DNA of 31,514 nt from a virus, in the IMG/VR virus record IMGVR_UViG_3300032334_000465, positions 1 to 31,514 of that record. One strand, written 5' to 3'. Under the pieces are notes generated by a model that did not search any database, was not told where the DNA came from, and was given only the letters and a program-made list of their open reading frames with translations. Position 1 is the first letter of the stretch. Every line of letters starts with the position of its first letter. A program made the position numbers and the translations under genes. Below, one piece after another: positions 4,518-20,806 of this stretch.

Positions 4518-6544
4518 TTAGTACAGAAATATATATTGAGAATTATCAGGTGGATTTGGTTGAGGATATATCAACTGATTTCACTTATACCATTGATGAC
4601 ATTAACGACTTTGGAGCAAAGAATACATCATTCAGTAAGACAATAACTTTAGTAGGTACTGCTAAGAATAACAAGATATTTGGTTTTGTTTTTGATTTGG
4701 GGAATGCGAATGTTACTAACGATGCCTTGCCAAATGTTAATTCAAACTTTAATGCTGCTAAGACTGCTCAATGTAGAATACTGATTGATAAAATACAAAT
4801 ATTTAAAGGGGTTATTAGGCTTTTAGAGATTGTTAATCAGTCAGGAACAATAGAATATCAATGTAATGTTAACGGAGATTTAGGAGGATTTATTTCTGAA
4901 TTAGGAAAGGCTAAACTTGAAAATTTAGATTTTAGTGATTATGATGAAACTTGGACACACGAAAATATAGAAGCATCTTGGACAAGTGTAAGCGGTTATG
5001 GTATTTACTATCCTTTAATTGATATCGGAGGAGTAACTACAAATGATTTAGATTTTCAGTATGAAGCATTCAAACCTGCTTTATATGTTAAGGAGTATTT
5101 AGAGAAGATATTAGCAGGAACAGATTATACTTGGGATTTTCCTTTACTATCAACTGATTTATTTAAAAGATTAATAATTCCTTGTAATCAAAAGATACTA
5201 AGTAAATATTCAAATATTGCTTTGGAAGCTAATCCTACTGCTAATACTTATAATAATCCTTCAAATGTTCATTATACTGCAACAACTTTAGGAAATTTTA
5301 CTTTAGGTGGAGGTAATCAAGAATTTACTTATACTCCTGCTTCTCCAATGAATGATGATATTATATGTTCAGTATTTGGACAAATTAATTCTGTTCATAG
5401 TGGAACTACTGCAACATTTACTTTATATAAAGGTGCAGCAATATTAGAACAACAAACAATTTCAGTTGCTTCATTACCTGCATTCTTTAATGTTGATTTA
5501 TCTACAAATGGAATCACATTTAATCAGAATGATGTATTAAGAGTAGGTATTACTTCAAATGTTCAACAAATACAACAATATGGTGGACAATTACAGGTTA
5601 TAAGTTTATTACCTACATCCGTGAATATAGGATATGGAGATATGATAACAATTAATGATGCAATTCCACACGGAATTTATCAAAAGGATTTTTTTATAAG
5701 TATTTGTAAGATGTTTAATCTTTATGTTTATGATGACCAATTTGATGAGAAAAAACTTCATATAAAGCCATATATTGACTTCTATTCAGGAACTATACAA
5801 GATTGGACTAATAAGGTAGACAGGTCAAAGGCTTGGTCAATAAAGCCAATGAGTGAACTTAATAGTAGATTCTATCAGTTTAAGTATAAGCCTGATAATG
5901 ATTACTATAATGAGAATTATCGTAAAAGATATAATGAAGGATATGGAGATAGATTGTATGATTCAGAATTTCAATTTGCTAATAATACAAGTAGCACAGA
6001 GGTAATATTTTCAGCCACTCCATTATATCAAGCAACAGGAAGAGATAAAGTTTATTCTGCAATCTATAAAAAATCAAATGATAATGCAGCAAAAGACCAG
6101 ATGGATTTTAATATTAGAATCCTTCAAGCACAAAAAATAACAGGTAGAACGAATTGGAAAATAAAAAATGGTGCATCAAACTTAATAACATTAAATGCTT
6201 ATGGTTATGCAGGGCATTTGCAATTTAACAATTCATTATTACCATTGAATGATATCAATTTTGGAGCTCCAAATGAGCTTTATTTTACTGCAGAATCATA
6301 TCCTACTACTAACCTATTCAATGCCTATTATAGTGATTATATGGCTGAAATTACGGATAAAGATAGTAAGTTATTAACCTGTCAAGTTTTATTAAATGCT
6401 CTTGATATTCAACAACTTGATTTCAGTAGATTAGTTTGGATAGATGGCATATTATTCAGGATAAACAAAGTGATAAACTATAATCCTATGAATTACACTA
6501 CAACAAAAGTGGAATTACTTAAAGTGATAACAAAAACATTCTAA
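4514..6544 (+). CDS. Large tail hub-like structural protein
   Basis: 676-aa protein directly before the tape measure gene, with no gap. The N-terminus (DINDFGAKNTSFSKTITLVG) and central region (FFISICKMFNLYVYDDQFDE, then IDFYSGTIQDWTNKVDRSKA) resemble a large protein conserved in Bacteroidetes siphophages and thought to form the tail tip or hub. About residues 230-370 are a Thr/Asn-rich beta domain of low complexity that may be a separate insertion. No lysin motif is visible. In most siphophages tip proteins follow the tape measure, whereas here they precede it. Confidence 0.5.
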   Translation: MISTEIYIENYQVDLVEDISTDFTYTIDDINDFGAKNTSFSKTITLVGTAKNNKIFGFVFDLGNANVTNDALPNVNSNFNAAKTAQCRILIDKIQIFKGVIRLLEIVNQSGTIEYQCNVNGDLGGFISELGKAKLENLDFSDYDETWTHENIEASWTSVSGYGIYYPLIDIGGVTTNDLDFQYEAFKPALYVKEYLEKILAGTDYTWDFPLLSTDLFKRLIIPCNQKILSKYSNIALEANPTANTYNNPSNVHYTATTLGNFTLGGGNQEFTYTPASPMNDDIICSVFGQINSVHSGTTATFTLYKGAAILEQQTISVASLPAFFNVDLSTNGITFNQNDVLRVGITSNVQQIQQYGGQLQVISLLPTSVNIGYGDMITINDAIPHGIYQKDFFISICKMFNLYVYDDQFDEKKLHIKPYIDFYSGTIQDWTNKVDRSKAWSIKPMSELNSRFYQFKYKPDNDYYNENYRKRYNEGYGDRLYDSEFQFANNTSSTEVIFSATPLYQATGRDKVYSAIYKKSNDNAAKDQMDFNIRILQAQKITGRTNWKIKNGASNLITLNAYGYAGHLQFNNSLLPLNDINFGAPNELYFTAESYPTTNLFNAYYSDYMAEITDKDSKLLTCQVLLNALDIQQLDFSRLVWIDGILFRINKVINYNPMNYTTTKVELLKVITKTF

Positions 6545-19295: not shown

Positions 19296-19541
19296 ATGGA
19301 AAAAAGAGAATTTGCTAAAGGAATCTTTATCACAGAGAAGGAAAGTAAGTCAGGGAAAACGTATCTGGAGATAGCTATCGGAGAAAATGGTGCATATAAA
19401 AAGTATGTTGCATTTAAAGGCACAAAGGAGGCGAAATACGGAGGTTTAATATATTCTGTGTATGATAAGACAGAACAACCTAAAGAGGCTGAAATTAAGC
19501 CTATGACAGACCACAGATTAAATAATGATTTACCATTCTAA
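19296..19541 (+). CDS. SSB-like OB-fold protein with LPF tail
   Basis: 81-aa protein that probably coats single-stranded phage DNA. The N-terminal 60 residues read as beta strands of an OB fold (FAKGIFITEKESKSGKTYLE; KKYVAFKGTKEAKYGG), with aromatic and basic residues suited to ssDNA contact. A flexible linker leads to the C-terminal NNDLPF, equivalent to the DDIPF/DDLPF tip with which SSB proteins recruit replication and repair enzymes. It is about half the length of cellular SSB. Neighbouring annealing-like and DnaA-like proteins support the role. The fold is inferred. Confidence 0.55.
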   Translation: MEKREFAKGIFITEKESKSGKTYLEIAIGENGAYKKYVAFKGTKEAKYGGLIYSVYDKTEQPKEAEIKPMTDHRLNNDLPF

Positions 19542-19938: not shown

Positions 19939-19946
19939 TATCTTTG
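19918..19946 (+). promoter_or_regulatory. Bacteroidetes promoter of the kissing-loop RNA / initiator gene
   Basis: The -7 box TATCTTTG is at 19939-19946, overlapping the end of the DnaA-like gene. A transcript would start near 19952, exactly where hairpin 1 begins. The -33 region is not a clear TTTG. Confidence 0.6.
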
Positions 19947-19951
19947 TAGAA

Positions 19952-20029
19952 ATGAAGGTGTCCGACTTCATATTATTAAAATCTTGCTATCCTAATGGGG
20001 TGCGGTACGGACATACCAATCCCTGTTAG
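19952..20029 (+). CDS. Possible 25-aa leader peptide (tentative)
   Basis: The ATG of hairpin 1 opens a 25-codon frame (MKVSDFILLKSCYPN..., stop TAG 20027-20029) that ends inside the closing stem of hairpin 2. If translated, ribosomes would disrupt the hairpins, as in attenuation. The start would lie at or next to the mRNA 5' end. An ORF of this length can occur by chance. Confidence 0.25.
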   Translation: MKVSDFILLKSCYPNGVRYGHTNPC

Positions 20030-20036
20030 GATTTTT
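19952..20036 (+). ncRNA. Structured RNA with complementary hairpin loops (candidate sRNA or attenuator leader)
   Basis: Hairpin 1: ATGAAG (19952-19957) pairs with CTTCAT (19966-19971), loop GTGTCCGA. Hairpin 2: ATCCTAATGGGG (19989-20000) pairs with CCCTGTTAGGAT (20021-20032) including two G-U. It has a 3 x 3 internal loop and an upper stem GGTA (20004-20007)/TACC (20014-20017), closed by loop CGGACA (20008-20013). The whole loop of hairpin 2 is complementary to TGTCCG (19959-19964) in the loop of hairpin 1, so a six-base-pair kissing interaction is possible. Hairpin 2 is followed by five T (20032-20036), so it also looks like an intrinsic terminator. The element starts at the expected transcription start and ends 5 bases before the initiator ATG. 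I match it to no known RNA family. Confidence 0.6.
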
Positions 20037-20041
20037 ATATT

Positions 20042-20806
20042 ATGGAACATCACTTTGATAAAGATTTTGCAGTTGATTATGGTTTGGATGAATCTATAAT
20101 GTTAAATCATTTGATATTCTGGATAGAAAAAAACAGAGCAAATAAACGTAACTTTATAAATGGTTATCATTGGACTTATTCAACTTATAAGGCTTTTACT
20201 GAAATATTTCCATATTGGAAGGAATTAAAGATAAAGAGAATTTTAGATTCACTTGTTAAACAGGAAGTTATATTAAGAGAAAATCACAATAAAGCAGGTT
20301 ATGATAGGACTTGTTGGTATGCCTTAAAAAATGAAGAATCCATATTTCAAAAACGAAATATCCATATTTCAAAAATGAAAGATGCATCTATCAAAAATGA
20401 AAGACCTATACCATATAATCTAACATATAATAATACATATAATAATACAAATACAGAGCTAACATTTTTTTCTTCTGATTATCAAAGTTTATGGTTAGAT
20501 TGGATTGAATACAAAAAATCAGAGTTTAAAGATAACTTTAAAAGTAAAAAAGCAGAACAAACTGCAATTAACCAGCTTCAAAAAATTTCAAATAATGACA
20601 TTGAAATTGCAAAAGAAATAGTAAATTTATCTATATCAAACAGATGGAAAGGATTATTTAAATTAAAAACCGAAAAAACAACTAAACAAAATGGAAAAAC
20701 AACTTCAGACTATTATCGAGAAAACTATCAGCAAAACCTTAAGTGGGCAAACGAATGGGATGCAGCAGAAGGAAAACAACCTTTTTTTACAGGCGAAGAA
20801 AACTGA
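20042..20806 (+). CDS. Replication initiator-like protein containing the origin
   Basis: 254-aa protein, probably the phage replisome organiser (lambda O / DnaD-like role). Residues 1-96 have a winged-helix pattern common to phage replication proteins (YGLDESIMLNHLIFWIEKNR; KIKRILDSLVKQEVILREN; CWYALKNEE). Residues about 100-135 form a linker encoded by DNA repeats: three 22-bp iterons and a duplicated AT-rich 12-mer. The C-terminal part (SLWLDWIEYKKSEFKDNFKS; AINQLQKISNNDIEIAKEIV; NRWKGLFKLK) is the helical domain seen in loader-binding initiators. The gene follows the kissing-loop RNA and overlaps the next gene. Confidence 0.7.
   Translation: MEHHFDKDFAVDYGLDESIMLNHLIFWIEKNRANKRNFINGYHWTYSTYKAFTEIFPYWKELKIKRILDSLVKQEVILRENHNKAGYDRTCWYALKNEESIFQKRNIHISKMKDASIKNERPIPYNLTYNNTYNNTNTELTFFSSDYQSLWLDWIEYKKSEFKDNFKSKKAEQTAINQLQKISNNDIEIAKEIVNLSISNRWKGLFKLKTEKTTKQNGKTTSDYYRENYQQNLKWANEWDAAEGKQPFFTGEEN
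20338..20403 (+). repeat. Three tandem 22-bp iterons (putative replication origin)
   Basis: Copies at 20338-20359, 20360-20381 and 20382-20403 share the core TTTCAAAAATGAAAG (third copy CTATCAAAAATGAAAG; first copy has CG for TG). A degenerate copy (CTTAAAAAATGAAGA) lies in register at 20323-20337. The period of 22 is not a multiple of three, so the encoded residues do not repeat and the conservation is at DNA level. Confidence 0.75.
20411..20454 (+). repeat. AT-rich region with duplicated 12-mer (putative DNA unwinding element)
   Basis: ACATATAATAAT occurs twice in tandem at 20423-20446 within a stretch almost free of G/C, eight bases after the last iteron. The order iterons then AT-rich DNA matches the lambda origin inside gene O. 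The repeat also encodes the tandem TYNNTYNN. Confidence 0.6.

Follow-up and report, generated by a model that had tools for sequence, protein, structure and literature searches.

The antisense rep attenuators of pT181 and pIP501 and the kissing copy control of ColE1 and R1 act on a replication initiator or primer through loop-loop contacts, and their loops are type-specific. The put antitermination RNA of HK022 opens an early phage transcript with two hairpins and lets the polymerase pass downstream terminators; it is not known to have self-complementary loops or a terminator of its own. Phage phiR73 shows heteroimmunity relative to the immunity exerted by the CI RNA of P4. As outlined in the excerpted text of PMC4825925, this CI RNA is short and untranslated, originates in the replication-operon leader and has short complementary segments; premature termination silences the replication genes, and the processed RNA pairs with two separate flanking sequences in the lysogen. 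The same excerpt presents IsrK of Gifsy-1 as prophage sRNA and leader at once, with a short terminated RNA and a read-through mRNA originating from one promoter (PMC4825925), and RNAII/repB of pMV158, as far as the excerpt of PMC4485353 describes it, is a related plasmid antisense case.

The RNA analysed here lies in a virus record of 31.5 kb (the window, i.e. the whole stretch of DNA under study), which encodes a phage terminase and other phage genes. Like the P4 CI RNA, it would lead a phage replication operon and combine complementary segments with a terminator, the latter assigned by sequence; unlike in P4, the segments that pair both sit in hairpin loops of a single RNA, and one of these loops is that of the terminator. 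The two also differ with respect to lysogeny, as the window family is devoid of integrase: PF00589 was found neither in the window nor in its relatives, and is present in Freya, Danklef and phi46:3. A short terminated RNA and a read-through mRNA from one promoter, as proposed below, would be shared with IsrK, for which the excerpt of PMC4825925 describes no kissing-loop terminator and a different context. Loop-loop contact, a replication initiator as target and loops varying by type are common to the plasmid antisense systems and the window RNA, but the former use a counter-transcribed antisense RNA, whereas both complementary loops of the latter are in the sense RNA. With HK022 put it has in common two hairpins near the transcript start, and it differs in its self-complementary loops and its own putative terminator. 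The initial annotation had further drawn a comparison to purine riboswitches, which holds for the motif of two hairpins joined by loop-loop contacts but not beyond it, since the RNA has no P1 or other closing helix between its ends, no three-way junction, no conserved core and no Rfam match, and its loops are hypervariable.

Structure and setting of the RNA

The intergenic gap of 103 bases between the upstream ORF and the initiator gene accommodates a promoter-like box, hairpin 1, a linker, hairpin 2 and a T tract (Table 1), and the initiator ATG follows at 20042, 5 nt past the T tract. The box, both hairpins, the T tract and the TGTCCG/CGGACA complementarity of the loops had been reported in the initial annotation and are present as claimed. 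The 85 nt from 19952 to 20036 fold better than 200 of 200 shuffles (z -3.6), and hairpin 1 is expected, from the sequence, to lie near the 5' end of the RNA. Hairpin 2 is a stable, G+C-containing hairpin immediately followed by a T tract, as in intrinsic terminators; a generic terminator scan did not call it because its stem is broken by the internal loop, and the T tract of the window, at 5 T, is short. A scan against Rfam 15 gave no match at the gathering score in the window, where a weak CRISPR repeat match stayed far under the cut-off, and tRNAs only in the relatives, in agreement with the earlier statement that the RNA matches no known family.

Table 1. Positions of the RNA elements and neighbouring genes in the window.
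Feature	Position	Strand	Basis or remark
Upstream ORF, DnaA C-terminal (domain IV) helix-turn-helix	19525..19938	+	PF08299, E 5e-13
Putative promoter box TATCTTTG, Bacteroidota-type -7	19939..19946	+	Directly 3' of upstream ORF stop codon; activity predicted
Hairpin 1, ATGAAG/CTTCAT 6 bp, 8-nt loop GTGTCCGA	19952..19971	+	Folding and alignment
Kissing segment 1, TGTCCG, in loop 1	19959..19964	+	Watson-Crick partner of 20008-20013
Linker, AT-rich	19972..19988	+	Conserved pairing absent in alignment
Hairpin 2, terminator-like, 12-bp lower stem, 3x3 internal loop TGC/AAT, 4-bp upper stem, 6-nt loop	19989..20032	+	Folding
Kissing segment 2, CGGACA, entire hairpin 2 loop	20008..20013	+	Covariation
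T tract, 5 T, after hairpin 2	20032..20036	+	Sequence
Replication initiator ORF	20042..20806	+	phrog_11233 replication initiation, E 2e-27; phrog_6493 DnaD-like helicase loader
Three 43-nt direct repeats, 22-nt spacing, iteron-like, inside initiator gene	20324..20410	+	Sequence

The direct repeats in the initiator gene are probably the origin, judging from their sequence; the initiator of L003 (L numbers denote the compared records) contains a different repeated motif in its middle. An ORF for DnaA domain IV adjoins the RNA upstream also in L002, L011, L074 and L078. Strict dependence of the RNA on this gene was considered and rejected, as the elemo phages have the RNA without DnaA_C. A short ORF at 19296-19541 of the window carries an acidic DLPF tip similar to the tail of single-strand DNA binding proteins, and similar ORFs are found in L074, L078 and L080.

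In shuffled sequences, two hairpins with GC-rich (at least 4 of 6) complementarity of 6-nt loops and a T run occur at a rate of about 0.08 per 31.5-kb strand, which falls to 0.04 once a TAnnTTTG box just upstream is required. The loop match in the window is by itself suggestive but short of proof, and the comparison with relatives is decisive.

Covariation in related phages

With the initiator as query, one full-length relative and two loci matching its C-terminal end only were obtained, and the neighbouring conserved proteins led to 25 and 43 loci. Searches with nhmmer and with a covariance model derived from eight sequences located the RNA in 23 of 43 related records (whole contigs of uncultured phages), in one copy each, on the sense strand and with E values of 1e-9 to 1e-24; one weak antisense match at the same site was disregarded in this count. 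Many of the related records without a match are short or start downstream of the site, and in every relative recognized by the covariance model the RNA precedes the initiator. Close cultured relatives, sought by DNA and by neighbouring proteins, were not found, and five matches in GTDB genomes, scanned with a single pattern, were dismissed as chance.

The model fitted the alignment to the stems while the kissing helix was left out of it, so that the pairing of this helix is an independent test. Across 19 distinct aligned sequences, 114 of 114 cells of the kissing helix are paired, all of them Watson-Crick, with compensatory double changes in five of the six pairs (36 cells) and no one-sided changes. 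By comparison with the 100% of the real alignment, column shuffles pair to 63% and slid registers to at most 43%, and the covariation score is 0.85 versus 0.17 in shuffles. Since the letters in contact change jointly from phage to phage, the loop-loop contact is real. The initial annotation had made it depend on covariation of the loops, as opposed to relatives keeping the spacer without it, and with 19 of 19 sequences paired it passed strongly. Loop pairs seen in the window family are TGTCCG/CGGACA, GTTCAG/CTGAAC, AGTCAG/CTGACT, TAGCCG/CGGCTA, TAGCAG/CTGCTA, AGGCAG/CTGCCT, ATGCAG/CTGCAT and GTGGCTT/AAGCCAC.

Pairing in the alignment amounts to 98% for the whole RNA structure, to 100% for hairpin 1 (double change in one pair) and to 98% for the lower stem of hairpin 2 (double changes in six of ten counted pairs). 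Both stems of hairpin 2 covary, and the G-U pairs of the stems occur on the + strand, which is therefore the RNA strand. All 20 aligned members show a TAnnTTTG-like box (0-1 mismatches) 4-6 nt 5' of hairpin 1, and in each of the relatives hairpin 2 is succeeded by a T-rich tract, which reaches 9 T in Freya_1, Gundel_1 and P12002L. We regard the RNA structure as secure, and transcription, termination and regulation as inferred. A leader peptide starting from the ATG in hairpin 1 was rejected, with the ATG lost in L030 and neither the stop position nor the peptide conserved.

The same anatomy in sequences that cannot be aligned

A scanner for hairpin pairs with complementary loops, the stricter version of which gives 0.04 false matches per 31.5-kb strand, was applied to further phages; some matches elsewhere lay inside coding sequence and were treated as background. 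Five related records (L074, L075, L076, L081 and L078) carry a divergent version at the same syntenic place, with the loops GTCGTAT/ATACGAC in L074 and GTCGCAT/ATGCGAC in L078, neither of which aligns with the window RNA. Cultured phages were surveyed, by inspection and with the stricter scanner, as a small, hand-chosen sample that gives no prevalence for the class, and the loops detected were GTGGAGG/CCTCCAC (elemoF), TGAGAGC/GCTCTCA (elemoA_7-9A), GTGAGATG/CATCTCAC (elemoA_2-5C), GTGGTGG/CCACCAC (Olleya Harreka_1), GGTGGAA/TTCCACC (Polaribacter Freya_1 and Danklef_3), GTAGGATTC/GAATCCTAC (Tenacibaculum Gundel_1) and GGTCGTAG/CTACGACC (Polaribacter P12002L). Two further IMG/VR lineages contain GTTGCGCT/AGCGCAAC (L129) and GTCGGAG/CTCCGAC (L130).

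Most of these unalignable versions again have a hairpin 2 whose long lower stem is separated by an internal loop from a short upper stem with the kissing loop, and a T tract behind it; some show a less regular hairpin 1. A promoter-like box is located shortly 5' of the first element in the cultured-phage versions too, and a replication gene is the next gene or among the next few downstream, e.g. DnaD-like in Freya_1, phrog_11233 in elemoF and a primosomal protein in Gundel_1. No kissing RNA was found near the replication genes of RAP44, BF766P4, L080 and Vibrio 1.247.A, in Ingeline_1 or Leef_1, or directly upstream in L127 and L128. Because of the covariation and the anatomy recurring in sequences that cannot be aligned, the kissing-hairpin leader seems to form a class of structured RNA not described before; the literature, covered in part, yielded no description of such an RNA, which does not prove that there is none.

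Two elements of different appearance were observed besides. In the Cellulophaga phage phi46:3 (L100 ~2108-2210), the complementarity CTCTCACAA/TTGTGAGAG spans 9 bp and the second hairpin is T-tailed, but there is no clear hairpin 1; the element sits upstream of an HNH endonuclease gene, which itself precedes a replication gene remnant. In the Bacteroides phage C3_41T2LP (L091 ~1608-1710), a box TATATTTG is followed by a 5' segment TGGTGGCGA complementary to TCGCCACCA in a large hairpin loop. An HTH gene and the initiator lie downstream, and a T tract is absent; from its sequence, this is possibly a related pseudoknot leader.

Exchange of loops and initiators

Between the window and L003, 8 of 84 RNA positions differ, all in or beside the two loops, at an upstream identity of 92%. 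L004 and L019 are 95% identical upstream and 97% downstream, yet differ at 18 of 84 RNA positions, which are spread over the two loops, the linker and the upper stem and leave the pairing intact. The same joint loop replacement distinguishes L017 from L036, and in other close phage pairs the loops are unchanged. Either selection or recombination may have given rise to the loop changes. In distant pairs the RNA is better conserved than the flanking coding DNA, as in L008 and L011 (4 differences in 84 nt versus 66% upstream identity), and it is retained where the initiator gene has been replaced (L003, L004). Most mismatched loop pairs would, by computation, kiss weakly or not at all, while the related types TAGCAG, AGGCAG and ATGCAG retain partial cross-affinity, down to -6 kcal/mol. 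A tie between loop type and initiator type was rejected, as L003 and L004 have the same RNA and different initiators, and L004 and L019 the same initiator and different loops.

The start codon immediately 3' of the RNA (window 20042; L003 2374; L004 2371) marks the point where N-terminal modules of the initiator have been swapped. By sequence, this start codon is a modular junction, with both flanks still homologous.

Possible function

The initial annotation had offered two functions, an ~85-nt sRNA with a terminator of its own or an attenuator acting on the initiator, and both can hold because a leader that is terminated is itself a small RNA. The leader or attenuator is favoured since the element is always beside replication genes and is kept through initiator swaps, and no separate target site recurred among 14 phage genomes. 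We consider it fairly probable that the RNA is a leader whose upstream hairpin controls the terminator via the kissing contact and limits read-through into the initiator. The putative promoter beside hairpin 1 would start a transcript at ~19952; hairpin 1 would fold first, and upon emergence of hairpin 2 the loops would form a Watson-Crick kissing helix of 6-9 bp. The linker, ~15 nt or more across the versions examined, is judged long enough for the two loops to meet in cis. Through this contact hairpin 2 may form faster, become more stable or be gated. Most transcripts would then stop at the T tract as an ~85-nt RNA and the read-through fraction would be the mRNA of the replication initiator. 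Since the probable origin is inside the initiator gene, read-through would also carry transcription to the origin, and the element would limit and tune both this transcription and initiator synthesis, besides insulating the initiator from upstream transcription. When folded without the 3' arm of hairpin 2, the 5' region pairs long-range with the 5' side of hairpin 2 in most sequences (-10 to -20 kcal/mol). In the folding model, this duplex is a possible antiterminator intermediate, with a kinetic choice between terminator and antiterminator; the fold arises as a side effect of the complementary loops.

As both partners lie in one RNA, terminated RNAs might also kiss, in trans, nascent leaders that share their loop type. 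This speculative action would resemble that of the P4 CI RNA and would make control dose-sensitive and specific for the loop type. Taken further, and only tentatively, the loops may be recognition barcodes by which terminated RNAs enforce termination on nascent leaders of their own type. If so, each phage would count its own copies and block co-infecting phages with the same loops, and selection for escape would explain the joint replacement of both loops in near-identical phages; this would amount to an incompatibility or superinfection system of one self-complementary RNA, spread over unrelated Bacteroidota phages. The lack of integrase in the window family makes lysogenic immunity unlikely there and leaves copy control or co-infection exclusion as the alternative.

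A constitutive stable terminator would look much like a regulated leader. The kiss would then merely stabilise the 3' end and block read-through from the upstream operon without regulation, which suits the position between two co-directional gene blocks and is reminiscent of L080, the most distant relative, where a plain strong terminator (6053-6129) occupies this place before the initiator and neither the DnaA domain-IV gene nor the kissing RNA is present. However, L080 also illustrates that a simple hairpin would suffice, and neither a dedicated promoter-like box at hairpin 1 nor repeated joint loop replacement with pairing kept would be expected, so that we think mere insulation unlikely. 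Quite unlikely, too, is that the ~85-nt RNA is itself the product, with one loop reading a phage or host target and the kiss serving as off state or stability device. Its own promoter-like box and T tract, the compact fold and the hairpins guarding both ends would fit, but 14 phage genomes revealed no recurrent third site of complementarity, the loops are almost wholly different between close relatives, which a fixed host target would forbid, and the element is never away from replication genes. Translational control, in which hairpin 2 and the kiss hinder the ribosome and the T run is incidental, draws on the short distance from hairpin 2 to the initiator AUG (9 nt in the window, ~9-12 nt in the window family); it is very improbable, given that small ORFs intervene between the RNA and the replication gene in elemo, Harreka_1 and L130, with the T tract kept. 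That a DNA element, such as a recombination hotspot or a single-strand origin structure, was mistaken for an RNA is hardly credible despite the swapping of initiator modules exactly at the 3' edge, in view of the stem G-U pairs on one strand only, the fixed spacing of the promoter-like box and the T tract.

The favoured leader RNA, carried by many viruses of Bacteroidota, is placed where these phages commit to DNA replication and probably sets the amount of replication protein made. Whereas terminators normally act by themselves, the terminator loop in this case is linked to a hairpin further upstream through a variable Watson-Crick code. As the RNA is present in the cultured phages Freya, Harreka, Gundel, elemo and P12002L, the mechanism can be tested directly. 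The loop pairs, being interchangeable, might find use as orthogonal RNA switches in Bacteroidota. In the elemo phages, a tRNA gene is situated just 5' of the RNA and varies between Met and Ala as annotated (L085 2426-2499, L087 1285-1360).
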